Source: Caballeronia cordobensis
Lineage (GTDB): Bacteria; Pseudomonadota; Gammaproteobacteria; Burkholderiales; Burkholderiaceae
DNA: 64,000 nt
Assembly: GCF_001544575.2 (NCBI RefSeq)
Contig: NZ_FCNY02000008.1
Coordinates: forward strand, 1 to 64,000
Reading direction: 5' to 3'
A model generated the notes under the pieces. The model saw only the letters and a list, made by a program, of their open reading frames with translations, made no database searches and was not told the origin of the DNA. Shown here in pieces: positions 1-62,417 of the stretch. Position 1 is the first letter of the stretch; each line of letters opens with the position of its first letter. Both the position numbers and the translations under genes were made by a program.

Positions 1-1095
1 TGGCGTCCGCTCGAAGGCTTCGTCTATGCGGTGTCGCCGTTCAACTTCACGGCCATCGGCGGCAATCTGACGACCGCGCCCGCGATCATGGGCAATACCG
101 TGCTGTGGAAGCCGTCGGAGAAATCGGCACTGGCCAACTACATCTTTTTCGAAGCGCTGGAAGAGGCGGGTCTGCCGCCGGGCGTCATCAATTTCGTGCC
201 GGGCGATGCCGAGTTGACCACGCGTGTCGCGCTGTCGTCGCCGGATCTGGCGGGCATTCACTTCACGGGTTCGTCGGCGGTGTTTCAGTCGCTGTGGAAA
301 GGCGTCGCGTCGAAGGTCGATGCGTTCCGTACGATTCCGCGCCTGGTCGGCGAGACGGGCGGCAAGGACTTCGTGCTTGCGCATGCGTCGGCGAATGCGT
401 CGGAAGTGGCGATCGCGCTGATTCGCGGCGCGTTCGAATACTGCGGGCAGAAGTGCAGCGCGGCGTCGCGGGCGTATATCCCGAAGAGCTTGTGGGGCGC
501 GGTCAGTAAGGAAATCCGTGAGCGTCTGTCGCAACTGAAAGTCGGCGATGTGGCGAACCACGACACGTTCATGGGCGCGGTGATCTCGCAGGCTTCTCAC
601 CAGAAGCTTTCGCGCGTGCTGGCGGCGGCCAAGGACGACGCGGCGGTCAAGTTCGTCTCCGGCGGCAAGACCTGGTCCGATCCGGGCTATTTCGTCGAGC
701 CGACCGTGCTCGAAGTCAGCGACCCGCATCACGCGCTGATGAAGGAAGAACTGTTCGGCCCCGTGCTCTCCGTGTTCGTCTACGAGGACGACGCGTGGAA
801 CGAAACGCTCGACCTCATCGACGCGACGAGCCCCTACGCGCTCACCGGCTCGATCTTCTGCACGGACCGCTTCGCGCTGCATCACGCGGAAAGCGTGCTC
901 GTGAATGCGGCCGGCAATCTGTATCTGAACGACAAGCCCACGGGCGCGATGATCGGCCAGCAGCCCTTCGGCGGCGGCCGCGCGAGCGGCACGAACGACA
1001 AGGCGGGCTCGTATCTGAACCTGCTGCGCTGGGCGTCGCCGCGCGTGGTGAAGGAAACGTATCTGCCGCAGCGCGACTGGACCTTCGGCGCTTGA
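1..1095 (+). CDS. L-glutamate gamma-semialdehyde (P5C) dehydrogenase, ALDH4A1 type, 5' end outside window
   Basis: This is the C-terminal two thirds of an aldehyde dehydrogenase that oxidises glutamate semialdehyde (from pyrroline-5-carboxylate) to glutamate with NAD+. The reading frame is open from base 1, so the gene begins upstream. The Asn-containing SPFNFT motif, the general base Glu in GETGGKD (codon 352-354) and the nucleophile Cys in CGQKCSAASR (codon 454-456) are all present. GQQPFGGGRASGTNDKAG and RWASPRVVKETY near the end closely match the animal ALDH4A1 and bacterial group 1 P5C dehydrogenases rather than the domain found in PutA. It lies 31 bases before an ABC importer and in the same gene run as a PutA whose own dehydrogenase domain looks dead, so it probably supplies the missing second step of proline oxidation. 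Family assignment is secure; coupling to PutA is inferred. Confidence 0.93.
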   Translation, partial: WRPLEGFVYAVSPFNFTAIGGNLTTAPAIMGNTVLWKPSEKSALANYIFFEALEEAGLPPGVINFVPGDAELTTRVALSSPDLAGIHFTGSSAVFQSLWKGVASKVDAFRTIPRLVGETGGKDFVLAHASANASEVAIALIRGAFEYCGQKCSAASRAYIPKSLWGAVSKEIRERLSQLKVGDVANHDTFMGAVISQASHQKLSRVLAAAKDDAAVKFVSGGKTWSDPGYFVEPTVLEVSDPHHALMKEELFGPVLSVFVYEDDAWNETLDLIDATSPYALTGSIFCTDRFALHHAESVLVNAAGNLYLNDKPTGAMIGQQPFGGGRASGTNDKAGSYLNLLRWASPRVVKETYLPQRDWTFGA

Positions 1096-1126: not shown

Positions 1127-2203
1127 ATGTCAACCATTGTTTCTTTCAAGAACGTACAGAAGACCTACGACGGCGAAACTCTCGTCGTCAAGAATCTCAA
1201 TCTCGACATCGAGGAAGGCGAGTTTCTGACGATGCTCGGGCCGTCCGGATCTGGAAAGACGACATGTCTGATGATGCTCGCGGGCTTCGAAACCGCCACG
1301 CATGGCGAGATTCTGCTTCAGGGGAAGCCGATCAACCGTATTCCGCCCGAGCGCCGCAACATCGGCATGGTCTTTCAAAGCTATGCGCTCTTTCCGCACA
1401 AGTCGGTTGCGGAGAACCTCGCGTTCCCGCTCAAGGTTCGCAAGATAGCGAAGGACGAGATCGCCCGTAAGGTCAAGCGCGCGCTCAACATGGTGAATAT
1501 GGAAAAGTTCGCCAACCGCATGCCCGGCCAGCTTTCCGGCGGGCAGCAGCAGCGCATCGCGGTTGCGCGCGCGCTGGTGTTCGAACCGGCGCTCGTGCTC
1601 ATGGACGAACCGCTTGGCGCGCTCGACAAGCAGCTTCGAGAGCAGATGCAGTACGAGATCAAGCAGATTCACGAGCAAAGCGGCCTGACCGTGGTCTATG
1701 TCACGCACGACCAGAGCGAGGCCATGACTATGTCGGACCGTATCGCCGTGTTCAACAACGGCATCATCCAGCAACTCGCGCCGCCGCCCGCGTTGTATGA
1801 ACGCCCCGAGAACGCCTTCGTCGCGCGATTCATCGGCGAAAGCAACGAGCTCACGGGAACGGTCTCCGTGATGGACAAGGAGCGCTGCACCGTGAAGCTG
1901 GCGAGCGGACAGAGCATCAAGGCAAGCATCGGGCCGACCATTCGGGAAACCGGGTCCGCCAGCATTTCCCTGCGGCCCGAGCGCGTTGCCGTCGGCGATC
2001 TGGCCAAAAATTGCGACAACGTCTTTCAGGGCGGCGTGAAGGATCTCATTTATTACGGCGACCATCTTCGTGTCGTGATGCAGGTGTGCGGACAGAACGA
2101 CTTCATCGTGAAGCTGCCGAACGACGGCGCCGCGCGTCAGTTGCGTGTCGGCGATTCGGTGCATATCGGCTGGATGGCGGAAGCGTGCCGCGCGTTGCAA
2201 TGA
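1127..2203 (+). CDS. ABC importer ATPase, spermidine/putrescine (PotA) type
   Basis: This 358-residue cytoplasmic ATPase would drive import of a small cationic or zwitterionic compound. The Walker A motif GPSGSGKTT lies at residues 38-46, the signature LSGGQQQ near 136, Walker B VLMDEP near 157-162, and the H-loop sits in VTHDQSEAM. The last 120 residues form a TOBE-like regulatory region. An AGGA ribosome site precedes the ATG. It is followed by two PotB/PotC-like permease genes, and the matching solute-binding protein gene is probably the one at 9336, beyond PutA and the TetR gene. The Pot/CUT1-related ATPases are too similar to reveal the substrate. The neighbours suggest proline, proline betaine or a hydroxyproline. 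Confidence 0.92.
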
Positions 2204-2323: not shown

Positions 2324-3610
2324 ATGATGATGCTTCCCCACGATATTGCCGTTCCCGCGGATCAGCCAGCGGCACCGTTGACCCTCAAAGACTCGAAGAG
2401 TCTGAAAGCCAGGCTCCGCAACGCGGAACGCGCTGAACGAGTGAAGGCATTGCTGCTCGTCGCGCCCTTGCTGATCTTCCTCGTCGTCACCTTCCTCGTG
2501 CCCATTGGAAGTCTGTTGATGAAGAGCTTTCGCGACGCCACGCTGTCTCAGGAGCTTCCCCACGCCGCGGCATTGCTGAGGGAATGGGACCCTGCCCAAG
2601 GCAAGCTGCCGGGCGAAGCGGTATTCGACGCCTTCGCGCGCGACCTCATCGCCGCAAAGGGTGGCGAGGGCGTCAGTCGAGTCGCGTCCCGGCTCAACTA
2701 TGACGAGGCGGGCATGCGCAGCCTCGTCATGAAAACGGCGCGCCGCCTGAGCGACGACGGCGCCGGCACATGGCACACGCGTCTTGCCGCCATCGATGAA
2801 CGCTGGAACGACATCGGCGCATGGTCGACGCTGAAATACGCATCGTCGCCGTGGACGCTGGGCTATTACCTGAAGGCCTTCGATTTCAAACGAGACGACC
2901 ACGGCGCGATCGTGCGCGAAGGACCGGGCGAGCGCCTGTATGTCGATGTATTCGTGCGCACCGCGTGGGTCAGTATCGCCGTGAGCGCGCTGTGCCTGCT
3001 GTTCGGTTATCCGGTCGCGTACTTTCTCGCGACCATTCCGGCTCGCTTCAGCAACCTGCTCATGATCATGGTGCTGCTGCCGTTCTGGACATCGATTCTC
3101 GTGCGCACGACGTCCTGGGTCGTCGTGTTGCAGCAGCATGGCGTATTGAACGATCTGCTCAAGACGCTCGGGCTCACGGAGCACGGCTTTCAGCTCATCT
3201 ACAACCGCTTCGGCGTGCTGGTCGCGATGACGCATATCCTGCTGCCCTACGCGATCTTGTCGCTGTATTCCGTGATGAAGGGCGTTCCCAACATCTACAT
3301 GAAGGCGGCGCGTTCTCTCGGCGCCGGACCAATCCGCTCGTTCTTTCAGGCGTATTTCCCGCAGACGCTGCCGGGCGTGGGCGCCGCGGGCATGCTCACG
3401 TTCATTCTCGCGGTCGGCTACTACATCACGCCGGCCATCGTGGGCGGCCCCGACGATCAGCTCGCCAGTTACTACATCGCCAATCACGTCAACAACACGC
3501 TGAACTGGGGATTGGCTTGTGCGCTCGCTTCGATCCTGCTGGCCGGCGTGCTGGCGATCTACGCGATCTTCGTTCGTATGACCGGCGGCGCCGGTGTCAA
3601 GCTGGGGTGA
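2324..3610 (+). CDS. ABC importer permease, PotB type, with enlarged periplasmic loop
   Basis: This is an inner-membrane permease of 428 residues. The first membrane segment (about residues 44-65) is followed by an unusual soluble stretch of about 130 residues (roughly 73-205), then about five more segments. The EAA-type cytoplasmic loop that contacts the ATPase lies around MKAARSLGAGPIRSF. Ordinary PotB proteins are near 280-300 residues, so the insertion accounts for the extra length. Some other proteobacterial PotB-like permeases also carry such an insertion. A strong AGGAGG site lies about 20 bases upstream of the chosen ATG at 2324, so an ATG triplet 3 or 6 bases further on could also be used. 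The 120 bases before it hold no other gene. Confidence 0.9.
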   Translation: MMMLPHDIAVPADQPAAPLTLKDSKSLKARLRNAERAERVKALLLVAPLLIFLVVTFLVPIGSLLMKSFRDATLSQELPHAAALLREWDPAQGKLPGEAVFDAFARDLIAAKGGEGVSRVASRLNYDEAGMRSLVMKTARRLSDDGAGTWHTRLAAIDERWNDIGAWSTLKYASSPWTLGYYLKAFDFKRDDHGAIVREGPGERLYVDVFVRTAWVSIAVSALCLLFGYPVAYFLATIPARFSNLLMIMVLLPFWTSILVRTTSWVVVLQQHGVLNDLLKTLGLTEHGFQLIYNRFGVLVAMTHILLPYAILSLYSVMKGVPNIYMKAARSLGAGPIRSFFQAYFPQTLPGVGAAGMLTFILAVGYYITPAIVGGPDDQLASYYIANHVNNTLNWGLACALASILLAGVLAIYAIFVRMTGGAGVKLG

Positions 3611-3615
3611 ATCGA

Positions 3616-4449
3616 ATGTTCAACTTTCCTGCCTATGTCACGGTCTGGGGACGGCTCGGACGCTGGTCGCACGTCGTTCTGTCGATGGCGGTTCTCGTAT
3701 TCCTGATCTCGCCGATTCTCGTCGTGATGCCGCTGTCGTTCAATTCGCAGCCTTACTTCACGTATCCGCTGCCCGGCGTGAGCCTGCGCTGGTATCGGGA
3801 CTTCATCGATAGCCCGGAATGGATGCTCGCGCTGAAGAACACGCTGATCGTAGGCTCCGCCTCGACGATTCTCGCGACGACGCTCGGCATCATGGCGTCG
3901 CTCGGGCTTACGCATCCGCGCTTGAAGGGCCGCGCGCTGATCACCGGCATTCTGGTCTCGCCGATGATCGTGCCTTTGATCATCACGGCGGTCGGCGTGT
4001 ATTTCGCCTTCAGCCCGTTCGGCCTCGTGAATAGCCTCACCGGTCTGATTCTGGCGCATGCCGCGCTTGGCGTGCCGTTTGTCGTGGTGACGGTCACGGC
4101 CACGCTGGCGGGCTTCAACGAAACGCTCTCGAGAGCCGGCCGCAGCCTGGGCGCGTCGCCGTTGCGCGTGTTCCTGCAGGTGAAGCTGCCGATCATCGCG
4201 CCGGGCGTGATCTCCGGCGCGCTCTTTGCCTTCGCCACGTCCTTCGATGAAATCGTCGTCGCGCTGTTCCTGACCGGCACCGATCAGCGCACGGTGCCAA
4301 GGCAGATGTGGGCGGGCATTCGCGAGCAGCTCAGCCCCACGATTCTGGCCGTTGCGAGCGTGCTTGTCGTGATCTCGACCTTGCTGCTCGTCACGCTGGA
4401 ACTTCTGCGTCGCAGGACCGAACGCTTGCGCGGTACGGCGAGCTTCTGA
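3616..4449 (+). CDS. ABC importer permease, PotC type
   Basis: This is the second permease subunit, 277 residues, with about six hydrophobic segments starting at HVVLSMAVLVFLISPILVV. The EAA-type loop GRSLGASPLRVFLQVKLP is clear. The chosen ATG at 3616 follows the stop of the first permease by five bases. An in-frame GTG at 3607 overlaps that stop codon and could equally be the start, which would give translational coupling. Together with 1127-2203 and 2324-3610 it makes a complete membrane importer core. It ends 40 bases before putA, so transporter and catabolic genes are probably co-transcribed. Confidence 0.92.
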   Translation: MFNFPAYVTVWGRLGRWSHVVLSMAVLVFLISPILVVMPLSFNSQPYFTYPLPGVSLRWYRDFIDSPEWMLALKNTLIVGSASTILATTLGIMASLGLTHPRLKGRALITGILVSPMIVPLIITAVGVYFAFSPFGLVNSLTGLILAHAALGVPFVVVTVTATLAGFNETLSRAGRSLGASPLRVFLQVKLPIIAPGVISGALFAFATSFDEIVVALFLTGTDQRTVPRQMWAGIREQLSPTILAVASVLVVISTLLLVTLELLRRRTERLRGTASF

Positions 4450-4489: not shown

Positions 4490-7400
4490 ATGCTGTCGCC
4501 AATCCAATCGACGAATACCGCCGCAACCCATCTCGAGACGCTGCGCCAACGCATCCGCGACGCATCGTCCTTACCCGAAGACGTCGTCGTTCAAGCGCTG
4601 ATGAAAGAGGCGCAGTTCGATGCCGCAACGTTGAAAAAGACGCAGGATCTCGCGGCGCGGCTCGCGCAGGGCGTGCGGGACGCGCGCATCGACGCGGGCG
4701 GCGTGGACCTGCTCACACAGGAATTTTCGCTCGACAGCCGTGAGGGCATCGCGCTGATGTGTCTCGCCGAAGCCATGCTGCGCATTCCCGACACCGAGAC
4801 GCGCAATCAGCTGATTCGCGACAAGATCGTCGATGCGGACTGGCGCGCGCATCTCGGCAAGTCGCCGTCGCTGTTCGTCAATGCCACGGCGTGGGGCTTG
4901 CTCGTGACGGGCAAGCTCCTGAAGCAGCCCGACGAAAACGCGCTGGCCGAAGCGCTGACGCGCGTCGTGCGCAAAGGCGGGGAAGCGGTCGTGCGCGGCG
5001 GCGTGGCCTACGCCATGCGCATGCTCGGCAAGCAGTTCGTCACCGGCCAGACGATCGAAGAGGCGATCGGCGTGGCGAAGGGCCGCGAGTCGAACGGCTA
5101 TCGCTACTCATACGACATGCTCGGCGAGGCCGCGCTGACCGACGAGGACGCGCAGGCTTATTTCGAGTCGTATCGGCACGCCATCGAAGCCATCGGCAAG
5201 GATGCGAAGGGTCAGGGGCCGATCGACGGGCCGGGCGTTTCGGTCAAGATCTCGGGCCTGCATCCGCGCTACGAGCTTGCTCAGCGCGAGCGGGTGCTGG
5301 CCGAAATGTATCCGCGCCTGCTGCAACTGGCGCAGATCGCGAAGCAGTATGGCATCGGCTTTCACCTCGATCAGGAAGAGTCGGCGCGTTTCGACCTGAC
5401 GCTCGAAATGCTCGAACGGCTGTGCTCGGAGCCGACGCTCAGCGGCTGGAACGGTATCGGCATCTCGCTTCAGGCCTATCAGAAGCGCGGGCGCGCCGTG
5501 GCCGAGTGGATCATCGCGCTGGCGCGCGCGAATGGCCGCCGCATCAACATCCGTCTCGTGAAGGGCGCGTACTGGGACACGGAAATCAAGCTGGCGCAGG
5601 ATGCCGGTGCGGCGGGTTATCCGGTTTTCACGCGCAAGGTGCATTCGGACGTGAGTTATATCGCCTGCGCGAAGGCCTTGCTCGACGCGCCGGACGCCAT
5701 CTTCCCGCAGTTCGCCACGCACAATGCGTTCACGCTGGCCGCGGCGCATACGCTGGCCGGCGACAAGCCGTACGAGTTCCAGTGTCTGCACGGCATGGGC
5801 GAAACGGTGTACGACCAGGTCGTGAGCGCGTCGAAGCTCGGCAGGCCTTGCCGGATCTACGCGCCCGTGGGGCCGCACGCGACCTTGCTCGCGTATCTCG
5901 TTCGCCGCCTGCTGGAGAACGGGGCGAATTCGTCGTTCGTCAATCAGATCGTCGATCCGGCGGTGAGCATCGCCGATATCGTGCAGGACCCGGTGGCGAA
6001 AGCGGCGCGCACGGGCGGCAAGCCGCATGCGGGCATCGTGTCGCCGCGCGGATTGCTGCCGGGCCGGCTGAATGCCGCATCGATGGACTTCGCGGATTCG
6101 CAGGCGTTTGCGCAGGCCGTCGCGGCGATCCGGGCGAACCGGATCAACGCGAGGCCCATCGTCGCGACGGCGGCGGATGCGTCCGGCGATGCCACCGCGC
6201 TCGTGCACAGCGCCGGCAACCTCGCCGAAACGATCGGCAGCGTGACGACGAGCACGGTGAGCGCCGCGGCGGGCGCGGTGGCATCCGCAGCGCAGGCGTT
6301 GGCGGCGTGGGCGGGCACGCCGGTCCGCGAGCGTGCGGACGTGCTCGAACGCGCGGCTGCATCGCTGGAAAGCAAAGGCGCGCACTTCGGCGCCGTGCTG
6401 GCGCTCGAGAGTGGCGCAACGCTGTCCGAGGCGGCCGAAGAAGTCCGGCGGGCCGTCAACCTGTGCCGCCTCTACGCGCATCAGCTCGTGAGCGATCCGC
6501 GCCTCGGCGATGCGAAGCCGCTCGGCGTGGTGGCGAGCATCAGTCCGTCGGCGTCGCCGCTGTCGTGCTTCGTCGGCCAGGCGGCCGCGGCGCTCGCCTC
6601 GGGCAATGCGGTCGTGGCGAAGCCGTCATCGAATGCGTCGTTGACGGCGTTCGAAGCCACGCGCGTATTCATCGACGCTGGCTTGCCTGCCGGCGTCATG
6701 CAACTGATGCCGGGCCACGGCACGACGATCGGCCGCGCCCTGGTTTCCGACTCGCGCGTCGCCGCCGTCCTGTTCGGCGGATCGCGCGACGTGGCCGCAT
6801 CGATTTCGGCACGGCTTGCGGAACGCGCGCAGCCCGCGCGGCTCATCGCGTCTCATGGCAGCGTGAACGCGATGATCGTGGATAGCTCGGCGCTGCCCGA
6901 GCAGGTTATCTCGGACGCGATCCAGTCCGCGTTCCACGGTGCGGGGCAATCGCTCGCATCGTTGCGCGTGCTCTGCCTTCAGGATTCGACGGCGGACAGA
7001 GTCTTGCGCATGCTCAACGGCATGCTCAGCGAGCGCAACACGGGTGATCCGCTCAGCGCCGCCACCGATATCGGGCCGCTCACGAACCGGGCGGCGAAGG
7101 ACCGCGCGGAGACCTACCTCGCGCAGATGCGGCGGCAGGGATTCGCGGTCACGCGCGGCACGCTGTCGGCCGAGTGTGCGGACGGCAATTTCGTCGCGCC
7201 GGCCATCGTCGATCTGAAGGATGTGGCGTCGCTCGGCGTCATCGATCCGGGCGTCGTGGGGCCCATTCTTCATGTCGTCCGCTTCAGGACGGGCGCGATG
7301 GACGATCTGATCCGCCGCCTCGATGCGCTCGATTGCGCCGTGCTCGGTCTTCACACGCGCATCAACGAAGCGAGCGGCAAGCTGCTGTCGTTCTCGAAGG

Positions 7401-8257
7401 CGAACAGCGTGTGCATCAACCGGTCCATTCATCAGGCGTTCCCGGGCATGCAGCCGGCTGGCGGCTCTGGTGCGGCCGGCACCGGTCCGATGAGCGGCGG
7501 GCCGCTGACGCTCTTCAGCCTCACGCGCGGGGAACCGTCCTCGTATGAAGCGCCGCAAGGGCCGTTCGGCGGATCGAAGGCGGCCGTCAGCGAAAAGTTC
7601 TTCGAGTTTCCGGTCGAGAGCGCCGATGGGCGTCTGACCGCGCGCAACACCGCTCAGGCGCAGGCGCGCGCCGAGCGCCAGCAGATGCTGGATGCGCTGC
7701 TGCACGCGCCGGCATTGCGGCGCATGAACGCGTCGCAACGGACGTCGGCGGAAGCGTTCCGCTCGCGCCTCGGCCAGTTGATCGACGCGTCGAAGCCGTT
7801 CAGCCTGCCGGCGCTGACGGGCGAGGAAAACACGCTCGAACTGCTGCCTCGCGGACAGGTGCTCTGCACGGGAGAATCGGCCTTCGCGCTGGCCATGCAG
7901 GCGATGGCGGCGGTGGCCTTCGGCAATGACGCCGTGCTGACGAAGTCCGCTTTCGCGGATGAGATCGCCGCCGTGCTGGGCCGCGCATGCCGGGTGATCG
8001 ATTCGTCGCAAGTGCAGCAGGCGCTGTCCGGTGAATTGCGCGCTGTGCGCGTGGAAGCCGTGCTGGCCGAGGCCGATCTCCCGGATCTCGGCAAGCTGCG
8101 CCGCGCGGCGGCCGCGCGCCTGACCAGTGTGATCGTCGCGGACGCTTCGGGTCGATACGACTGGACGCAACTCGTGCGCGAGCGCGTGACCACCGTGAAC
8201 GCGAGCGCGGCGGGCGGGAACACGCAACTCATGGTCATGAGCGAGGATGCAATGTAA
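4490..8257 (+). CDS. putA: PutA-like proline dehydrogenase with degenerate P5C dehydrogenase domain
   Basis: This large PutA-type protein has 1255 residues. The N-terminal FAD-dependent proline dehydrogenase looks intact: RLVKGAYWDTEI from residue 355, FATHNAFT, FQCLHGMGE and YAPVGPHATLLAYLVRRLLE are all conserved. There is no N-terminal ribbon-helix-helix domain, so it should not act as its own repressor. The second half is an aldehyde dehydrogenase fold in which every catalytic position I can align is changed. The usual SPWNFP reads SPSASP (685-690, oxyanion Asn to Ala688), the general base Glu of the ETGG motif is Ser788 (SHGS), and the nucleophile Cys of GQRCSALR is Leu822 (GQSLASLR). Length and a further C-terminal domain match trifunctional PutAs otherwise. 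A separate, intact P5C dehydrogenase lies upstream at 1-1095. The gene name rests on the proline dehydrogenase half. Confidence 0.93.
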   Translation: MLSPIQSTNTAATHLETLRQRIRDASSLPEDVVVQALMKEAQFDAATLKKTQDLAARLAQGVRDARIDAGGVDLLTQEFSLDSREGIALMCLAEAMLRIPDTETRNQLIRDKIVDADWRAHLGKSPSLFVNATAWGLLVTGKLLKQPDENALAEALTRVVRKGGEAVVRGGVAYAMRMLGKQFVTGQTIEEAIGVAKGRESNGYRYSYDMLGEAALTDEDAQAYFESYRHAIEAIGKDAKGQGPIDGPGVSVKISGLHPRYELAQRERVLAEMYPRLLQLAQIAKQYGIGFHLDQEESARFDLTLEMLERLCSEPTLSGWNGIGISLQAYQKRGRAVAEWIIALARANGRRINIRLVKGAYWDTEIKLAQDAGAAGYPVFTRKVHSDVSYIACAKALLDAPDAIFPQFATHNAFTLAAAHTLAGDKPYEFQCLHGMGETVYDQVVSASKLGRPCRIYAPVGPHATLLAYLVRRLLENGANSSFVNQIVDPAVSIADIVQDPVAKAARTGGKPHAGIVSPRGLLPGRLNAASMDFADSQAFAQAVAAIRANRINARPIVATAADASGDATALVHSAGNLAETIGSVTTSTVSAAAGAVASAAQALAAWAGTPVRERADVLERAAASLESKGAHFGAVLALESGATLSEAAEEVRRAVNLCRLYAHQLVSDPRLGDAKPLGVVASISPSASPLSCFVGQAAAALASGNAVVAKPSSNASLTAFEATRVFIDAGLPAGVMQLMPGHGTTIGRALVSDSRVAAVLFGGSRDVAASISARLAERAQPARLIASHGSVNAMIVDSSALPEQVISDAIQSAFHGAGQSLASLRVLCLQDSTADRVLRMLNGMLSERNTGDPLSAATDIGPLTNRAAKDRAETYLAQMRRQGFAVTRGTLSAECADGNFVAPAIVDLKDVASLGVIDPGVVGPILHVVRFRTGAMDDLIRRLDALDCAVLGLHTRINEASGKLLSFSKANSVCINRSIHQAFPGMQPAGGSGAAGTGPMSGGPLTLFSLTRGEPSSYEAPQGPFGGSKAAVSEKFFEFPVESADGRLTARNTAQAQARAERQQMLDALLHAPALRRMNASQRTSAEAFRSRLGQLIDASKPFSLPALTGEENTLELLPRGQVLCTGESAFALAMQAMAAVAFGNDAVLTKSAFADEIAAVLGRACRVIDSSQVQQALSGELRAVRVEAVLAEADLPDLGKLRRAAAARLTSVIVADASGRYDWTQLVRERVTTVNASAAGGNTQLMVMSEDAM

Positions 8258-8263
8258 AGCAAC

Positions 8264-8293
8264 GGCGACGCCTAGCGCGCGTGAGGCGTCGCC
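8264..8293. terminator. Convergent hairpin between putA and the TetR gene
   Basis: The arms GGCGACGCC (8264-8272) and GGCGTCGCC (8285-8293) form a perfect nine-base-pair stem with a 12-base loop. The element spans the last codons of the minus-strand TetR gene and lies just after the putA stop, so it could end transcription from both sides. There is no strong T-run on the plus side. Confidence 0.6.
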
Positions 8294-8931
8294 ATGTTCA
8301 TTTTCCAGATCCGATGAGTCGCATCGTCGATCATGCCGTGGAATATGCCGATCGCTTCATCGATGCTGATGGTCGCCGCGACCCGGTGTTCGATCCAAAG
8401 CCCGTGAACCAGCGCCATCGCCTGAATGGCGTGAATGCGGGACATCACCGGATCGCATCCGGCGCGGCGGAAGTCGAAAACGAAGTTGGAGCGCAGCCGC
8501 CTCGAAAACGCCGTGCAGAGCCGCCGCACGTCCTGTTCGTGCGCGGACGAGCTCCACATGTGCGGCCAGACGTTGGCCGCGCCCTGACTCATGACTTCGT
8601 CGTTGAAACACATGTCGGCGGTGAATTTCATCCGCACGATGGGATCGGCGATGTCCCGCCGCCCGTCGGTGAGCTGTTCCCGCACTCGCCGGATCAGATG
8701 TTCGAACGTCTTGTAGACGAGGCTTTGCTTGTTCTCGAAATGATGATGGACGAGACCCACCGATACCCCGGCGTGTTCGCTGACGCGCCTGATCGTCAGA
8801 TTTTCAAGGCCGACTTCACCGACCACGGCCAGCGTGGCGTCGATGAGCTTGAGCCGCATCCCTTCATAGGGACCGGCTTCGTCCTTGCGGCCGGGTCCTG
8901 CAACGACGGCTGCCTTCACGATGATTTCCAC
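8272..8931 (-). CDS. TetR-family regulator, BetI-like
   Basis: This is a 219-residue DNA-binding repressor. The helix-turn-helix LTIRRVSEHAGVSVGLVHHH (about residues 45-64) followed by HFENKQSLVYKTF is typical of TetR proteins and closest in style to BetI, which controls choline and glycine betaine genes. The C-terminal ligand domain has the BetI-like WPHMWSSSAHEQDVRRL stretch. It is transcribed away from the solute-binding protein gene at 9336. The space between them contains three copies of a TGAAC-N4-GTTCA palindrome, the likely operators, suggesting autoregulation and control of the importer. The ligand is unknown; a betaine or proline derivative would fit the neighbours. Confidence 0.88.
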   Translation of the reverse strand: MEIIVKAAVVAGPGRKDEAGPYEGMRLKLIDATLAVVGEVGLENLTIRRVSEHAGVSVGLVHHHFENKQSLVYKTFEHLIRRVREQLTDGRRDIADPIVRMKFTADMCFNDEVMSQGAANVWPHMWSSSAHEQDVRRLCTAFSRRLRSNFVFDFRRAGCDPVMSRIHAIQAMALVHGLWIEHRVAATISIDEAIGIFHGMIDDATHRIWKMNMATPHAR

Positions 8932-9335: not shown

Positions 9336-10412
9336 ATGAAACTGAAGACCCGATACTCAGCCACGATTGCGATGCTGATTGCCACCTCCGTGGCGAGCGT
9401 CTCCGCCAGCGCAGCCGACATTGTCTTTGCCAGTTGGGGCGGCTCCTATCAGGACGCCCAGAACGCCACCGCGGTCAAGCCGTTCGCCGCGCAGACCGGA
9501 ACGAACGTCAAGTCCGATGTGTACAACGGCGGCATTGCCCAGATCCGCAGCCAGGTCCAGACCAACAACGTGACATGGGACGTCGTCGACATACAGTACG
9601 CGGACGCCATCCGCGCCTGCGACGAAGGGCTGCTGGAAAAGATCAATCCGGCTGCGCTGCCGGCCGGAAAGTCGGGCGAGCCCGCGAAGTCGGATTTCAT
9701 GTCGGGCGGCCTGTCCGAATGCATGGTCGGCAACGTCGCGTGGTCGACCGTGATCACCTACAACAAGGACGCGTTCAAGAGCGGCGAGCCGTCGAAAGTG
9801 GCCGACTTCTTCGATCTGAAGAAGTACCCCGGCAAGCGCGGACTGAGAAAGTCTCCCGAAGGCGCGCTCGAATGGGCGTTGCTGGCGGACGGCGTCAAGC
9901 CGGCCGATGTCTACAAGGTGCTCGGCACCAAGGAAGGCGTCGCGCGTGCGTTCAAGAAGCTGGACACGATCAAGTCGTCCATCGTGTGGTGGGAAGCGGG
10001 CGCTCAGCCGCCTCAGCTTCTGGCCGACCGCGAAGTCACGATGACGAGCGCCTACTGCAACCGCATCTGGACGGCGATCGCCCAGGACAAGAAGCCGTTC
10101 GGCTTCGTCTGGGACGGCGAAGTGAAGAACATCGAAGGACTGGCGATCGTCAAGGGCACGAAGAACCTGAAGGCCGCACAGGAGTTCCTGAAGTTCTCGA
10201 CCGCGACGGAGCAGCTTGCGAAGCTGAGCTCTTCCACCGCGCTCGGCCCGATGCGCACGTCTTCGCTTTCGCTCGTCGATCCGGCGGTGAAGCCCTATCT
10301 GCCGACGCATCCGGATAACCAGAAGACCGCGGTCGATGTCGACGTTGCATTCTGGGCGGATCATTCCGACGACCTGAACCAGAAGTTCGCCGTCTGGCTC
10401 GGGGCGAAGTAA
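9336..10412 (+). CDS. ABC transporter periplasmic solute-binding protein, PotD-like
   Basis: This protein has 358 residues with a Sec signal peptide (MKLKTRYSATIAMLIATSVA, cleavage probably after SASA). The mature part starts ADIVFASWGGSYQDA, the standard opening of polyamine-type binding proteins, and carries YNGGIAQIRSQV and FGFVWDGEVKNIEGLAIVKG. The ATG at 9336 is chosen because AAGGA lies eight bases upstream and the signal peptide begins there. An earlier in-frame GTG at 9273 has no ribosome site. It is the only binding protein near the PotABC-like core at 1127-4449 and probably serves it, although PutA and the TetR gene intervene. The upstream palindromes suggest strong induction by substrate. 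Confidence 0.92.
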   Translation: MKLKTRYSATIAMLIATSVASVSASAADIVFASWGGSYQDAQNATAVKPFAAQTGTNVKSDVYNGGIAQIRSQVQTNNVTWDVVDIQYADAIRACDEGLLEKINPAALPAGKSGEPAKSDFMSGGLSECMVGNVAWSTVITYNKDAFKSGEPSKVADFFDLKKYPGKRGLRKSPEGALEWALLADGVKPADVYKVLGTKEGVARAFKKLDTIKSSIVWWEAGAQPPQLLADREVTMTSAYCNRIWTAIAQDKKPFGFVWDGEVKNIEGLAIVKGTKNLKAAQEFLKFSTATEQLAKLSSSTALGPMRTSSLSLVDPAVKPYLPTHPDNQKTAVDVDVAFWADHSDDLNQKFAVWLGAK

Positions 10413-10525: not shown

Positions 10526-11578
10526 ATGACTTTCAAGCGTACCTTTCATGCGGTCGAGACGCACTCGGGCGAGCCGATGCGGGTGATCACGGGAGGCGTG
10601 CCGCATATTCCGGGCAATACGGTCTATGAGCAGATGAAGTGGCTGGAAGAGCACGACGATCAGATCCGCATGCTCATGCTGCGCGAGCCGCGCGGTTATC
10701 CGCCGCTGTGCTGCAATCTGATCGTGCCGGCCAAGCATCCCGATGCGGCGGCGGGTTACATCATCATGGAGCAGGTGGAGTATCCGGTGATGAGCGGCGG
10801 CAACACGATCTCGGTCGCGACCGTGCTGCTGGAAACCGGCATGCTGCCGATGCAGGAGCCCGTCACGGAGTTCCAGCTCGAAGCGCCCGCGGGTCTCATC
10901 GGCATCCGCGCCGAGTGCAAGAACGGGAAAGTGACCTCGGTCACGTTCAAGAACGTGCCGGCGTTCGCGCCGTATCTCGAGAAGGTCATCGACGTGCCGC
11001 ATCTCGGCAAGGTCACGGTAGATGTCGGCTGGGGCGGCATGTTCTATGTGATCGCCGATGTGCGCCAGTTCAAGGGGCTGGAACTGAAGCCTGAGCATGG
11101 CAAGGAAATCACGCGCGTGTCGGCGCTCATCCTCAAGGCGGCGCAGGAACAGTTGCCGGTCGCTCATCCTCACTATCCGGGGTATGGCATCACGATCGCG
11201 CAGTTGTCCGGGCCGACGGAGAATCCGAACGCGGACTGGAAAAACGCGGTCACGGTCGCGAGCGGCGCCATCGATTTCGATAATCCGGCGACATGGACCG
11301 GCGCGATCGATCGTTGTCCGTGCGGCACCGGCACGTCGGCCAAGATGGCCACGCTGCACGCCAAGGGCGAACTGGACCTGAACCAGCCGTTCCGGCACGA
11401 GGGCGTATTGGGTACGGTCTTTACGGGCAAACTCGTGGAGCAGGTCAGGATCGGCGATATTCCGGCGGTCGTGCCGACCATTTCCGGCCGCTCGTGGATT
11501 TACGGCTTCAACACCTACGTGCTCGATCCGGACGATCCCTTCACCCACGGTTACACGCTGGGAGACATCTGGGCATGA
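10526..11578 (+). CDS. Proline racemase superfamily enzyme with Ser/Cys pair: candidate trans-3-hydroxy-L-proline dehydratase
   Basis: This 350-residue cytoplasmic protein belongs to the proline racemase superfamily. The second catalytic motif is intact (DRCPCGTGTSAKMA, Cys266). At the first catalytic position the usual MCGHG motif reads MSGGNTI, placing Ser90 where racemases and 4-hydroxyproline epimerases have Cys. Family members with an altered first or second residue are, to my knowledge, mostly trans-3-hydroxyproline dehydratases or bifunctional enzymes. A dehydratase would yield pyrroline-2-carboxylate, which the next gene could reduce to proline. The GAGAACACC before the ATG is a weak ribosome site. 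No DapA-like deaminase, needed for the 4-hydroxyproline route, is in the window, which favours the dehydratase reading. Superfamily is certain; reaction is inferred. Confidence 0.87.
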   Translation: MTFKRTFHAVETHSGEPMRVITGGVPHIPGNTVYEQMKWLEEHDDQIRMLMLREPRGYPPLCCNLIVPAKHPDAAAGYIIMEQVEYPVMSGGNTISVATVLLETGMLPMQEPVTEFQLEAPAGLIGIRAECKNGKVTSVTFKNVPAFAPYLEKVIDVPHLGKVTVDVGWGGMFYVIADVRQFKGLELKPEHGKEITRVSALILKAAQEQLPVAHPHYPGYGITIAQLSGPTENPNADWKNAVTVASGAIDFDNPATWTGAIDRCPCGTGTSAKMATLHAKGELDLNQPFRHEGVLGTVFTGKLVEQVRIGDIPAVVPTISGRSWIYGFNTYVLDPDDPFTHGYTLGDIWA

Positions 11579-11602: not shown

Positions 11603-12580
11603 ATGCGATACGAGCGTGAAGAAGCAAAGCAGATCGCGTACGGCGCGATCAGGGCAGCCGGCGCGAACGACGCCGTCGCCCATTCCCTGACCGAAGCGGT
11701 CCTGTCCGCCGAACTCGCCGGCAGCAAGGCGGTGGGTTTCGCTCACTTGTCCGACTATCTCGATGGCTTCCTGAAGGGGCGAATAGCCGTCGATGCGGAC
11801 CCGGCGATCGCTTTTCCCGCGCCTGCCGTCATCACGGTCGATGCGCGAAAGGGCATCGCGCAGCTCGGGTTCGATCAGGCCTTCGATGAGTTGACGACGC
11901 GGGCGGCGACCTACGGGATCGTCGCTTTGTCGATATCGAACAGCTTCACCGTCGGCGAACTCGGTTATTACACGAGACGCCTCGCGGAGCGTGGGCTCGT
12001 TTCGATCGCCACATGCAACGCGACGGCGCAGATGACCACGCTCGAAAGCGGCCGCGCGGTGTACGGAACCAATCCGGTTTCGTTCGCCGCGCCCGTGGCT
12101 GACGGACGGCCGCTCGTCATCGATCAGGCATCGAGCGCGACGGCTTTCGTCAACGTGCGCAACGCCGCCGAGCGCAACGAACCCATTCCTGAAGGCTGGG
12201 CCGTCGATCAGAACGGCAAGCCGACCACGGATGCCAGGGAAGCCGTGAAAGGCCTGCTCGTCGCATTCGGCGGCGCACGCGGCGCCAACATCGCGATGAT
12301 GATGGAAGTTCTCGCGGCGGGCGTCACCGGAGCCAACTGGTCGATGGATGCGCCTTCGTTTGCGGAAGGCAGTGAAAGCCCGGGGGTCGGGCTCTTTCTC
12401 GTCGCGCTCAAACCCGAGATCTTCTCGCCCGGCTTCCCCGAGCGGCTTGCGGCGGAACTCGCCCGGCTGGCTGGCGCGGGCGTGCGTATTCCGGGCAGTC
12501 ACATCCAGGTTCGGGAAATCGACGTGCCCGCGGAAACCATCGACCGGGTGCGTGGCTACGCGCAGCGTTCGCGGTCTTGA
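11603..12580 (+). CDS. Ldh2/malate dehydrogenase-family oxidoreductase, candidate pyrroline-2-carboxylate reductase
   Basis: This 325-residue protein belongs to the type 2 malate/lactate dehydrogenase family, which also contains NADPH-dependent pyrroline-2-carboxylate and piperideine-2-carboxylate reductases. It begins 24 bases after the proline racemase-like gene, so the two are co-transcribed and likely act in sequence (dehydration to the cyclic imine, then reduction to L-proline). GYYTRRLAERGLVSIATCN and VYGTNPVSFAAP are family landmarks. Two places where this family usually shows His appear changed: the N-terminal SHG motif reads AVG in AGSKAVGFAHLSDYL, and the SNH motif reads SNSFTVGELGYY. 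The alignment was done by eye, so the activity call is moderate while the family call is firm. Confidence 0.82.
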   Translation: MRYEREEAKQIAYGAIRAAGANDAVAHSLTEAVLSAELAGSKAVGFAHLSDYLDGFLKGRIAVDADPAIAFPAPAVITVDARKGIAQLGFDQAFDELTTRAATYGIVALSISNSFTVGELGYYTRRLAERGLVSIATCNATAQMTTLESGRAVYGTNPVSFAAPVADGRPLVIDQASSATAFVNVRNAAERNEPIPEGWAVDQNGKPTTDAREAVKGLLVAFGGARGANIAMMMEVLAAGVTGANWSMDAPSFAEGSESPGVGLFLVALKPEIFSPGFPERLAAELARLAGAGVRIPGSHIQVREIDVPAETIDRVRGYAQRSRS

Positions 12581-12634: not shown

Positions 12635-13894
12635 TCAGATGCCTTGTGCTTTCAGGCGCGCGTCGTACCAGCGGCAGAACTGGTCGAGCGGCGCTTCGGT
12701 GTAGGGCGAGTAAGGCCCCGGCACGTAAGCGGGATCCTGCGTTCCGCTATGCGTGTTCGCCACCAGATCGGCGTCTTGCTGATTGGTTGCGAGCCAGACT
12801 TCCGTCAGTGTCTTGAGATCGTAATCGACGCCCTCGACGGCGTCTTCGTGAACGAGCCACTTGGTCCGCACGAGCGTCTTGTCCGGTGCGATCGGAAGAA
12901 TGAAGGCGACGATGGAATGATCGCTCATGACATGAGTCCACGAATTATGGCCCCACATATGCACGTCTCCGAGGTCGCGGCGTTGCAGATCGCCAAGCAG
13001 CTTCGTGCTCGCGACCTTCGTGCTCAGCGTCTGCGACTCGTTGCTGCCGGCGATGACCAGACGCTGCGTGCGGAAATTCGTGTGCACGCTTTCGTCGAGC
13101 GATTCGAACAGCGCGCAGATATACCCTTCGCTTTCCCAGTCCTCGCGGTTCTTCGCATTGCGGGCCAGGTAGGCGTCGTAGTTCTTCATCGCCTCTTCGC
13201 CGAGCCCGTCGGGACAGAAGCCGAAGTCTTCGGGCAAGAACGAGTTGGTCAGTTCCGGATGCGTGGCTTCGCAGTGATAGCACTCGCGATTGTTTTCCAT
13301 CACGAGTTTCCAGTTGCCGTTCTCGATGAGTTCCGACTCGAAGGCGATCTTGGTGCGCTGCATGTGATGCGGCGCGAAGCGCGGCGTCATCACCTGTTCG
13401 AGCTTCGCGATGTCTTCCGGCGGATCGTCCGAGAGGCAGACGAAAATGTGCGCGCCGATCACTTTCGTGTGAACCGGAATCAGGCTTCGGCATGTCTTGT
13501 CGAAATCCTGTCCCATGTGCGTGGCGTGCTTCAGGCTGCCGTCGAGCTCATAGGTCCATTGATGATACGGGCAGACCAGCATGCCGACGCTGGCCTTGCC
13601 GGGCTGTTTCATGATTCTCGAACCGCGATGGCGGCAGACGTTGCGATACGTGCGGATGTTCTCGTCGTCGTCGCGCACGATCATGATCGACGCTTTCCCG
13701 ACCTCGACGGTGGAGACGTCGCCCGGTTCCGGCACGTCGGCCGTCACGCCGGCGAGAATCCAGAGCTTGTTGAAGAAGACATCGACATCATTGTCGAAAA
13801 CATCCGGACGACTGAATATTTCGCCGGGAAAACCGCAGCCGGGCGCGCGGCTGTCGATCAGTTCGCGATGCGTTTTGGGGGGCGTGGCAGACAC
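12635..13894 (-). CDS. Rieske non-heme iron oxygenase, GbcA/stachydrine demethylase-like
   Basis: This 419-residue oxygenase subunit resembles glycine betaine (GbcA) and proline betaine (Stc2) demethylases. The Rieske cluster ligands are Cys87 and His89 (CRHRGS) and Cys108 and His111 (CPYHQWTY). The mononuclear iron site is ENNRECYHCEATHPEL with His207 and His212. The start is a GTG at 13894, because GGAG lies seven bases upstream and the family alignment begins there; a longer open frame upstream reads through the promoter region. These enzymes remove a methyl group from quaternary amines as formaldehyde, using electrons from a separate ferredoxin-type reductase, which is not seen nearby. 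It is divergent from a LysR gene across 163 bases. Substrate is inferred from the proline-centred neighbours. Confidence 0.87.
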   Translation of the reverse strand: MSATPPKTHRELIDSRAPGCGFPGEIFSRPDVFDNDVDVFFNKLWILAGVTADVPEPGDVSTVEVGKASIMIVRDDDENIRTYRNVCRHRGSRIMKQPGKASVGMLVCPYHQWTYELDGSLKHATHMGQDFDKTCRSLIPVHTKVIGAHIFVCLSDDPPEDIAKLEQVMTPRFAPHHMQRTKIAFESELIENGNWKLVMENNRECYHCEATHPELTNSFLPEDFGFCPDGLGEEAMKNYDAYLARNAKNREDWESEGYICALFESLDESVHTNFRTQRLVIAGSNESQTLSTKVASTKLLGDLQRRDLGDVHMWGHNSWTHVMSDHSIVAFILPIAPDKTLVRTKWLVHEDAVEGVDYDLKTLTEVWLATNQQDADLVANTHSGTQDPAYVPGPYSPYTEAPLDQFCRWYDARLKAQGI

Positions 13895-14057
13895 GTTTTC
13901 GCTCCAGAAATAAGTGTTCTTGGCAGGCACGGTTCGAATCCGTACGCGCAGTATTGGAGTTCGGATTTTCAGCGTCAACGTCCTTTATTGTTCTGTCCGC
14001 ATTACCCCAGGTTATGCGATACGGGCCCCACGAATTCATGACAGGAGATCTTTCCCG

Positions 14058-24507: not shown

Positions 24508-26310
24508 CTACGCCGCTTTCGCCAGCCACGCGCGCCATCCGCCCAACGCGGAGATGTCCTCTCCGGACTGCACGCCGTAGGGTTCGCACAGAAAGCCGGT
24601 GATCCACGAGCCGTCCCCGAGTTCGATCTTCCCCAACGCGAGCGGAGACGGCACGGTGGCGATGAACGAGCCGAATTCCGAGCTGGGCATCTCCCAGACC
24701 TCGATCGCGATCTCGGCGCCACCGGAATCGACACGCCACAGGCCGGGACGCCGCGTGCCGTCCGCCGATGCCGGCAAGGCGCACAGCCGATAGGACGGCG
24801 CGGTGCGCGTCGCCCGCACGAGACGCGCGTTCCGGCTGAGCAAATCGCGATTCAACGGCAAGCGTTCCATATGCGCGCCGCATACCGCCAGCTGCATGCG
24901 ATCGTTGCTCGCGACGCCTCGCGCGCCCGCATCGATTGCGTTATCGCCGACGCATGCGATGCCGCTCGCGCGCTGAAGCACATCGGCGATGCCGAGCAGA
25001 TATTGATCGGTGAAGGCGCGCCCGAAGACGGTCACGCCGCACGGCAGGCCGTTTTTCATGAAGCCGGTGGGCGCGGCGACCGCCGCATAGTCCAGCAGGT
25101 TCATGAAGTTGGTGTAGTAGCCGAGCAGCGAGTTCGGCCCGATCGGATCGCGTTCCAGTTCGGCGAGCGTCACGGGACGCGGGTAGGTCGGTGTCAGCAC
25201 GAAGTCAAGCGTATCGAGCGCCGCATCGCAGACGGCCTTCAGCGCCTGGAGACGGTATTGCGCGCGAAACAGCTCGACCGCGGTGGCGCCCGGCGCTTTC
25301 GCGAGCACATCGCGGATTACGGGCAGCACGGCGTCGGGCTGCGTGGTGATGAGTTCCTCGGTCACGCTGTAGCGCTCCGCCACCCACGGTCCCTGATAGA
25401 GCAGGCGCGCCGCTTCGACGAAAGGCGCGAAATCGATCTCGACAGCCTCGCCGCCGGCGGCTTCCAGCATCGCGCGAGCCTTGGCGAAGAGCGTGGGGCT
25501 TTCGGTGCATCCGTCGAATTCGAGTTGCGCGGGCACGCCGAAGCGAAACGCGGCAGGCGCGCCGAATGCGCGCGCGCCGTTCCATTGCGGATTGCCGCGG
25601 CTGTACGGGTCGCGCGGATCGGCTTGCGCGGTGAGCGCGAGAAGCTCGCTCGCTTCCGTGGCCGTCGCCGTGAAGAACGTCACGCAATCGAGCGTGCGGC
25701 AGGCCGGCACGACGCCAGCGGTCGAGAGCACGCCCTTCGTCGGCTTCAATCCGACGAGATTGTTCAGCGCGGCAGGCACGCGGCCCGAACCGGCCGTGTC
25801 GGTGCCGAGCGCGAAGCTGGCGACGCCCAGCGCGACCGCAAGCGACGAACCGGCGCTCGATCCGCCCGACGGATAGTCGGGATGCACACTGTTGCGGCAC
25901 TTGCCGTAAGGCGAGCGCGTGCCGTTGAGGCCGGTCGCGAACTGATCGAGATTGGTCTTGCCGAGCGGTATCGCGCCGAGCGCGATCAACCGTGCGACGA
26001 GCGTCGCCGATTCCGTCGGCGTGTACGCGAACGCGGGGCAGGCGGCGGTCGTCTCGATGCCCGCAAGGTCGATGTTGTCCTTGATCGCGAACGGAATGCC
26101 GTAGAGCGGCAGGCTCGCGACATCGTGTTCGTCGAGCCGGTTCAGGAAGGGCGCGACTTCCTCTTCCGTCAGAAGATGGACGAACAGATGAAACTCGGGA
26201 TCGAGCGCGGCGGCTTTTTCACGCAAGCCGGCGATCAGTTCGCGCGGCGTGAGCGTTCCATCGAGATAGGCGCGGCGCAGCGTCGGAAGACGCAGATCGA
26301 ATGACGACAT
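24508..26310 (-). CDS. atzF: Allophanate hydrolase
   Basis: This 600-residue amidase-signature enzyme converts allophanate to two CO2 and two ammonia. The catalytic triad is visible: Lys77 (GIPFAIKDNID), a Ser in PSGGSSAGSSLA (about 151) and the nucleophile Ser175 (GTDTAGSGRVPA). The C-terminal 130 residues form the extra domain typical of AtzF-type enzymes (VWEMPSSEFGSFIATVPSPL). It is the last gene of the minus-strand operon that begins with the guanidine riboswitch near 34337 and is separated from the carboxylase gene by only 18 bases. In this pathway allophanate comes from deimination of carboxyguanidine. Confidence 0.93.
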   Translation of the reverse strand: MSSFDLRLPTLRRAYLDGTLTPRELIAGLREKAAALDPEFHLFVHLLTEEEVAPFLNRLDEHDVASLPLYGIPFAIKDNIDLAGIETTAACPAFAYTPTESATLVARLIALGAIPLGKTNLDQFATGLNGTRSPYGKCRNSVHPDYPSGGSSAGSSLAVALGVASFALGTDTAGSGRVPAALNNLVGLKPTKGVLSTAGVVPACRTLDCVTFFTATATEASELLALTAQADPRDPYSRGNPQWNGARAFGAPAAFRFGVPAQLEFDGCTESPTLFAKARAMLEAAGGEAVEIDFAPFVEAARLLYQGPWVAERYSVTEELITTQPDAVLPVIRDVLAKAPGATAVELFRAQYRLQALKAVCDAALDTLDFVLTPTYPRPVTLAELERDPIGPNSLLGYYTNFMNLLDYAAVAAPTGFMKNGLPCGVTVFGRAFTDQYLLGIADVLQRASGIACVGDNAIDAGARGVASNDRMQLAVCGAHMERLPLNRDLLSRNARLVRATRTAPSYRLCALPASADGTRRPGLWRVDSGGAEIAIEVWEMPSSEFGSFIATVPSPLALGKIELGDGSWITGFLCEPYGVQSGEDISALGGWRAWLAKAA

Positions 26311-26328
26311 AGCTTTTTATCCGATAGT

Positions 26329-62415: not shown

Positions 62416-62417
62416 GC

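Follow-up and report, generated by a model that had tools for sequence, protein, structure and literature searches.

A PutA paralogue with a degenerate second active site

We analysed a window of 64,000 nucleotides from Caballeronia cordobensis, which starts at base 1 of its contig (NZ_FCNY02000008.1, here C58) in a genome of 8.2 Mb. The gene under study, at 4490..8257 on the + strand, encodes a PutA-type protein that we name PutA*. Such proteins join a proline dehydrogenase (PRODH) half, which yields pyrroline-5-carboxylate (P5C), to a glutamate semialdehyde (GSA) dehydrogenase (GSALDH) domain. An initial annotation of the window had described PutA* as a full-length PutA with a conserved PRODH half, a catalytically dead GSALDH domain and a stand-alone P5C dehydrogenase (P5CDH) in the same gene run. 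The open reading frame has 1255 codons with zero internal stops, and Pfam places PRODH domains and an aldehyde dehydrogenase (ALDH) domain on its product. The features of the gene are as follows.

4490..8257, + strand: PutA with a pseudo-GSALDH domain (PutA*), 1255 aa, from profile matches and alignment
4667..5989, + strand: PRODH region, residues 60-500 (Pro_dh PF01619, 333.7 bits)
6167..7519, + strand: pseudo-GSALDH domain, residues 560-1010
6551..6553, + strand: codon 688, Ala at the oxyanion Asn position, from alignment with intact PutAs
6851..6853, + strand: codon 788, Ser at the general-base Glu position, from the same alignment
6893..6949, + strand: residues 802-820, equivalent to the tunnel-wall helix 824-842 of the S. 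meliloti PutA (SmPutA) by our own mapping
6953..6955, + strand: codon 822, Leu at the nucleophile Cys position, from alignment with intact PutAs
7595..7669, + strand: clade insert of 25 residues, 1036-1060, starting K[FY]xE[FVY]P
7757..8254, + strand: C-terminal domain (CTD), residues 1090-1255, with the C-terminal motif RERVTTVNASAAGGNTQLM, from alignment

The whole-protein model for bifunctional PutA, PRK11904, accepts PutA* at 1101.9 bits (cut-off 747) notwithstanding the loss of the triad. The P5CDH-domain model TIGR01238 leaves it below threshold (398.4 bits, cut-off 485.2), as does PRK11809 (1238.5 bits, cut-off 1750). No ribbon-helix-helix (RHH) domain was found in PutA* with the Pfam profile PF21775 ('PutA, RHH domain'), though this profile matched the normal PutA of the same genome. 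Because it is without an N-terminal RHH domain, PutA* is not a trifunctional (type C) PutA; the trifunctional origin that the initial annotation had seen for it is therefore not supported. Of the features of a type B PutA, it has the PRODH residues, the PRK11904 match and the CTD with its C-terminal motif, and it lacks the catalytic Asn, Glu and Cys. Nor is it the organism's only PutA: PutA* is an extra paralogue beside a normal, intact PutA at C72:693088, with which it shares 49% identity over residues 17-1017.

Loss of the GSALDH triad and retention of the PRODH site

In SmPutA the GSALDH triad consists of Asn707, Glu810 and Cys844, and GSALDH activity is abolished in the C844S variant (PMC12398946, excerpt). 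SmPutA numbers were carried onto PutA* through alignments (chain index minus 2). The corresponding residues of PutA* are Ala688, Ser788 and Leu822, exactly as first annotated. The three columns read N, E and C in 64/64 aligned intact PutAs (58 loci from the scan described below, five normal PutAs and L153; close relatives are among them, and 10 carry a CTD). The PutA* alignment comprised 32 rows; six of them (L143, L147-L151) exactly duplicate scan loci, so that the number of distinct proteins is 26. Not one of these 26 retains any of the three catalytic residues. The Asn column holds Ser in 12, Ala in 10, Thr in 2, Gly in 1 and Phe in 1; the Glu column Thr in 7, Ser in 5, Ala in 4, Gln in 3, Ile in 3, Met in 2, Arg in 1 and Asn in 1; and the Cys column Ala in 23, Leu in 2 and Gly in 1. 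The pocket has been emptied to mostly small residues, a pattern that is not random drift. Ser689 takes the place of the aromatic-box residue Phe708 of SmPutA, and at the second aromatic-box position the orthologues have F, Y, A, V, S and others. The QPFGG motif of intact PutAs does read QPAGG in the PutA* of the window, as had been noted, but the Phe is kept in 11/26 orthologues, hence its loss is not clade-wide.

The PRODH half presents the opposite picture. Of the columns that reach 95% conservation or more among 63 intact rows, PutA* keeps 71/76 in the PRODH region and 59/130 in the GSALDH domain. Its PRODH site is complete (Lys253, Leu433, Tyr457, Arg472 and Arg473, plus the gate pair Glu213-Arg472), and across the clade E213, K253, R300, L433, Y457, R472 and R473 are present in 26/26 and E297 in 25/26. 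Every substrate and gate residue checked is thus retained, in agreement with the initial annotation. Asp809 is also kept in 26/26 and aligns, in our own alignment, with Asp779 of BjPutA, for which a D779W variant is known as a PDB entry title. PRODH residues 256, 295, 301 and 386 are fixed in the PutA* clade and different in intact PutAs; by our mapping, 295 and 301 flank a loop that forms part of the SmPutA tunnel roof (PMC12398946, excerpt).

Two cysteines of the dead domain, Cys659 (6464-6466) and Cys975 (7412-7414), are shared by nearly the whole clade (97% and 94% of the 32 rows); intact PutAs mostly have Leu at the first position and, without exception, Tyr at the second. They are what could speak for a triad that has migrated, or for a domain that is still an enzyme with changed chemistry. 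With all three ALDH motifs altered and no full replacement set visible, we consider such an enzyme improbable.

Distribution and phylogeny of PutA*

Named genomes were scanned with two peptide patterns from a conserved stretch, and the best 80 of 204 relatives were retained. These 80 loci comprise 21 that encode PutA*, 58 with an intact triad and one (L086) without an open frame, which was dropped. The 21 PutA* hosts belong to Caballeronia, Paraburkholderia, Trinickia, Pandoraea, Burkholderia, Cupriavidus, Aromatoleum and Azohydromonas. In the genus sample, 4/58 genomes have a PutA* match at E <= 1e-299, namely the genome under study and three others at 63-88% identity. The family sample consisted of 200 genomes from a larger group, with the PutA* and P5CDH searches taken as covering the same 200; PutA* occurs in 11/200, the genome under study counted. 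No further member was returned from the class sample at the threshold used (1/274 genomes, our own only). The genus, family-sample and scan sets overlap. All 26 distinct orthologues with the triple loss come from betaproteobacteria.

A tree of the PRODH region, from which the dead domain was excluded, was built from 22 PutA* and 24 intact rows, some of the intact ones long-branched. All 22 PutA* rows group on a single branch (length 0.57, support 100/100), and no intermediate forms of the triad loss were found among the rows examined. The simplest reading is that the triad would have been lost once. With 26 distinct proteins showing the triple loss and the 22 in the tree forming one clade, the suggestion in the initial annotation that PutA* constitutes a distinct PutA class is supported. 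Pseudo-ALDHs, and channelling between separate proline enzymes, are already known. Searches of the open-licence PMC literature for a PutA with a dead GSALDH domain, or for two PutAs together, gave no such case, and within that literature the subclass appears to be new.

A separate P5CDH gene accompanies PutA*

The first gene of the window encodes a separate candidate for the oxidation of GSA.

1..1095, + strand: ALDH4A1-type P5C/GSA dehydrogenase (TIGR01236), stand-alone, represented by no more than its C-terminal 364 aa; SPFNF, GETGG, GQKCS and QQPFGG present

This gene had been annotated as intact. A separate P5CDH does lie near PutA* and its visible motifs are intact, but what the window holds is the C-terminal 364 aa; the N-terminal part is missing because the contig starts at base 1 of the window. 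The fragment scores 546.3 bits with TIGR01236 (cut-off 613.6) and the full orthologue L047:4965-6551 (genome G062) 713.5 bits, full-length orthologues having 528-535 aa. Contig C58 and contig C23 are each cut off within a P5CDH gene (L048 at the C23 end). They share an exact 77-base end (window 1-77), past which they diverge; over the first 1200 bases, 1079 match. The genome thus has two P5CDH copies of close similarity, within which the assembly seems to have broken.

An ALDH4A1-type P5CDH gene lies less than 12 kb from every PutA* gene (26 distinct), mostly in a single run of P5CDH, ABC transporter and PutA genes. Within the flanks of the scan loci it was found in 20/21, in 19 of those upstream on the same strand; for the remaining locus, L071, it was read 11.4 kb upstream from the matching contig G027:C12. 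The distance is 3.4 kb in the window and 3.7-11.5 kb in L144, L145, L146 and L152. All P5CDH copies inspected show the catalytic motifs: the 20 from scan loci, that of G027, ten from the family sample and the window fragment. We also looked for the triple loss without a separate P5CDH, the case that the initial annotation had named against itself, and met none: P5CDH is on the same contig in 4/4 genus genomes, 11/11 family-sample genomes and 21/21 scan loci (L071 by way of the G027 contig).

The association was then set against genomes without PutA*, using Fisher tests in which kinship is ignored throughout. In the family sample, a P5CDH of at least 79% identity is present in 11/11 PutA* genomes and 2/189 others (2e-16), the 79% line having been set after the hits were viewed, in a gap between 57% and 79%. 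Inclusion of the 55-57% homologues gives 11/11 against 11/189 (2e-12). In the genus the counts are 4/4 and 2/54 (3.5e-5), or 3/54 with a 55% homologue in G020. Because of this co-occurrence and the intact catalytic motifs, the second step of proline oxidation would fall to the neighbouring enzyme. Judged from these sequences, PutA* is a type-B-like PutA that has apparently turned into a monofunctional proline dehydrogenase carrying a pseudo-GSALDH module, with step two probably carried out by the separate enzyme.

Selection and conservation in the dead domain

dN/dS was calculated with our own Nei-Gojobori script. For the same 11 PutA* pairs it is 0.10-0.32 in the dead domain and 0.02-0.06 in the PRODH region; four pairs of normal PutAs give 0.10-0.12 for the live GSALDH domain and 0.06-0.07 for PRODH. 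Since the values are far under 1, the dead domain is under purifying selection, somewhat relaxed yet far from neutral. The quicker evolution of the domain, relative to the PRODH half, is the one feature that a pseudogene or a sequencing artefact would share. We reject this explanation, as did the initial annotation: the 1255-aa frame is open, the triple loss recurs in 26/26 distinct open orthologues with dN/dS of 0.10-0.32, and 125 columns of the domain are at least 95% conserved among 22 PutA* members.

Conservation is unevenly spread. The tunnel-wall helix (residues 802-820) has a mean conservation of 0.87 and the whole dead domain 0.70. The Glu motif, at 0.98 among intact PutAs, drops to 0.52 in PutA*. 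When the 433 windows of 19 residues that cover the domain are ranked by conservation, 792-810 comes first and 802-820 comes 19th. Because the scan probe was that same stretch, we recounted with 14 members from a whole-length search, and obtained ranks 1 and 20, 0.88 for the helix and 0.50 for the Glu motif. The C-terminal motif, residues 1228-1250, reaches 0.94; in SmPutA the C terminus covers part of the tunnel like a lid (PMC12398946, excerpt). In the clade insert, residues 1036-1040 and 1045-1060 are gaps in 10/10 CTD-bearing intact PutAs and residues 1041-1044 in 9/10, and K1036 and E1039 are present in 26/26 PutA*.

The emptied pocket might serve as a ligand sensor for proline, betaine or NAD that controls the PRODH half. 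Lys711, a residue involved in binding NAD, is retained by 97% of the 32 PutA* rows, Ala fills the Cys column in 23/26, and the window at the lost Asn is conserved no less than the domain. L-proline and hydroxyprolines are known to bind the PutA GSALDH site (PDB entry titles). A sensor pocket is nevertheless made less likely by the variation between the 26 orthologues at the Glu column (T, S, A, Q, I, M, R, N) and at the second aromatic-box position. The window 919-925, which we take to be the cofactor-holding motif, has a conservation of 0.59. On balance we regard a sensor as unlikely.

A full-length model of PutA*, built from an alignment of the clade plus intact PutAs, has a pLDDT of 86.7 and a pTM of 0.89; 1023 of its residues can be laid over crystal structures of PutA at 2.1-2.2 Å (Foldseek TM 0.85). 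The dead module is predicted to keep the ALDH fold. PutA* thus combines lost catalytic residues with selection and a predicted fold that are kept, as is expected of a pseudoenzyme whose inactivity is read from its residues.

Gene context

The remaining genes of the + strand run that leads from P5CDH to PutA*, and those that follow, are listed below.

1127..2203, + strand: ABC transporter ATPase, PotA type (ABC_tran and TOBE_2)
2324..3610, + strand: ABC transporter permease 1 (BPD_transp_1, 36.1 bits)
3616..4449, + strand: ABC transporter permease 2 (BPD_transp_1, 53.3 bits; start set from the L043 orthologue)
8272..8931, - strand: TetR-family regulator, BetI-like (PRK00767, 125.7 bits, cut-off 118; TIGR03384, 121.6 bits, below 201.3)
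9336..10412, + strand: ABC solute-binding protein, polyamine-type (SBP_bac_8; best solved relative 4eq7)
10526..11578, + strand: proline racemase superfamily, nearest trans-3-hydroxyproline dehydratase (PF05544; NF047722, 336.2 bits, below the cut-off of 550)
11603..12580, + strand: Ldh_2 family, nearest solved relative delta1-piperideine-2-carboxylate reductase (PF02615; 1wtj)
12635..13930, - strand: Rieske oxygenase, nearest solved relative 4qup, named monoxygenase/demethylase (NF058607, 388.4 bits, below the cut-off of 670)

The ATPase and both permease genes lie upstream of PutA* in 21/21 scan loci, and the ATPase orthologue L047:6583-7659 scores 378.2 bits with TIGR01187 (cut-off 355.6). 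The downstream genes of the window suggest an inflow of proline that may come from betaines or hydroxyprolines. Hydroxyproline was also considered as the substrate of PutA* itself and is held to be less likely, Tyr457 (SmPutA Tyr473) being kept in 26/26. Tyr540 of E. coli PutA is presumably the same position, and PRODH2 presumably has Ser there. The Y540S mutant of E. coli PutA was crystallised with hydroxyproline (title of PDB entry 3e2q). Because Tyr457 is kept in all orthologues, proline is the more likely substrate.

In most relatives (for example L047:13977-18319 and L056:12336-19892), HutG, electron transfer flavoprotein (ETF) alpha and beta, a HutD-like protein and a sarcosine-oxidase-like FAD enzyme are encoded after PutA*, L056 also having a protein like ETF-quinone oxidoreductase (ETF-QO); in the window the HutG/ETF/FAD set does not directly follow PutA*. 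N-methylproline or N-formyl chemistry was considered for these genes as speculation only. An ETF gene set does occur far from PutA*, at 61666-63350 (+), a few genes past acyl-CoA dehydrogenase and CoA-transferase genes, and at 24508-29928 (-) a urea-carboxylase-like biotin enzyme adjoins an allophanate-hydrolase-like amidase. A different operon with the same P5CDH and an ABC transporter and without PutA* is seen in L178:3848-17753 and in L179, L180 and L181; that of L178 also contains dapA-family, GlcD-like and LldD-like genes and two HutG-like genes. The ABC operon of G007 that lacks PutA* likewise has dapA-family, GlcD-like and LldD-like genes.

A proposed role for the dead module

These observations can be assembled into a pathway. 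Substrates would enter through the ABC transporter encoded between P5CDH and PutA*. The PRODH half, flavin-dependent and with its residues complete, would convert proline to P5C. Because its triad is lost, PutA* itself should no longer be able to oxidise GSA, and the neighbouring ALDH4A1-type P5CDH would do so. The pseudo-GSALDH domain is probably still folded and, with the PRODH half, would form the tunnel wall, the CTD remaining attached. Its likeliest job would be to keep P5C/GSA confined in a chamber until it is handed over to the separate P5CDH, an enzyme that would dock for this transfer. As a whole, that PutA* makes P5C and its dead module holds and passes P5C/GSA to the separate enzyme is our best explanation, with a probability of roughly 0.6. 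The part that makes the module a conduit or chamber handing P5C/GSA to P5CDH, taken alone, has a somewhat less than even chance; we prefer it because PutA* has given up the catalytic residues yet preserves the tunnel wall, the gate and the C-terminal motif. More specifically, and only tentatively, the pair may be a naturally split channelling enzyme in which the K[FY]xEFP insert and the CTD dock P5CDH for GSA transfer. There is precedent in M. tuberculosis, for which channelling between separate PRODH and P5CDH is reported (PMC10537722, excerpt).

The main rival to a conduit is a role in which the dead module and CTD merely support the PRODH half (stability, membrane association, quinone access), with P5CDH taking P5C from solution. 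The CTD has been suggested to be part of the lipid-binding apparatus of PutA, which serves functional switching (PMC5293562, excerpt), and PutA* retains both the CTD and the C-terminal motif. However, crystals have been obtained of E. coli PutA PRODH domains, and of minimal PutA designs, that have no GSALDH domain (PDB entry titles), which indicates that the domain is not needed for folding. Support alone also does not predict a P5CDH near every member, though operon logic could. We hold this role to be doubtful.

Several observations weigh against the proposed hand-over. A stable PRODH-P5CDH complex had not been shown earlier in M. tuberculosis (PMC10537722, excerpt). The P5CDH gene (79-88% identity) occurs without PutA* in G007, G008, G093 and G087, beside another ABC operon; the enzyme therefore works without PutA* and is not tied to it everywhere. 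In L074, one of the 21 scan loci, P5CDH is on the opposite strand, and in L071 and G129 it is more than 11 kb off. PutA* runs also contain genes that proline oxidation does not call for (HutG in 16/21, HutD in 17/21, ETF genes in 17/21, FAD oxidoreductase in 18/21). Within the domain, three windows do not fall under the domain mean: the one at the lost Asn has 0.72, the one at the lost Cys 0.80 and the anchor loop 0.81. Since the Asn and Cys windows are conserved and the Cys column is Ala in 23/26, some use of the emptied pocket is possible, and the tunnel-wall residues could be retained for packing alone. Finally, the PutA-like shape of the full-length model is partly built in, because its alignment included intact PutAs; in a clade-only model much of the PRODH half is poor (pLDDT under 50), and just the GSALDH/CTD half of that model was used.

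Significance and comparison with known systems

PutA is a model of substrate channelling, in which the second domain is regarded as the enzyme that the tunnel leads to. In the PutA* lineage catalysis has apparently been removed, while the domain, its tunnel wall and the C-terminal motif are kept under selection. With no need for mutagenesis, the lineage would set catalysis apart from roles as conduit and in docking; it thereby offers a natural test of the non-catalytic roles of the domain and two proteins on which these can be examined. It also has a practical side: PRK11904 passes PutA* as bifunctional though half of that function is most likely gone, and metabolic reconstructions may therefore assign P5C oxidation to the wrong gene.

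Type B PutAs (SmPutA, PDB 5KF6; RcPutA) resemble PutA* in domain order, absence of an RHH domain, the CTD, PRODH residues, tunnel-wall residues, C-terminal motif and fold, the last predicted for PutA*. Unlike them, PutA* is without the GSALDH triad, has a lost or variable aromatic box, carries the 25-residue insert and has a separate P5CDH gene nearby. The normal PutA at C72:693088 differs from it in having an RHH domain and an intact triad. The human pseudo-ALDH ALDH16A1 likewise has an ALDH fold and lacks the whole catalytic triad (PMC10650815, excerpt), but it belongs to a different ALDH family and is without a PRODH half. M. tuberculosis PruB and PruA, for which channelling is reported (PMC10537722, excerpt), divide the two steps of proline oxidation between two polypeptides as PutA* and P5CDH would, and the monofunctional PRODH/P5CDH pair of Thermus is likewise two polypeptides. 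In contrast to these monofunctional pairs, the PRODH of PutA* still carries an entire dead GSALDH module and a CTD.

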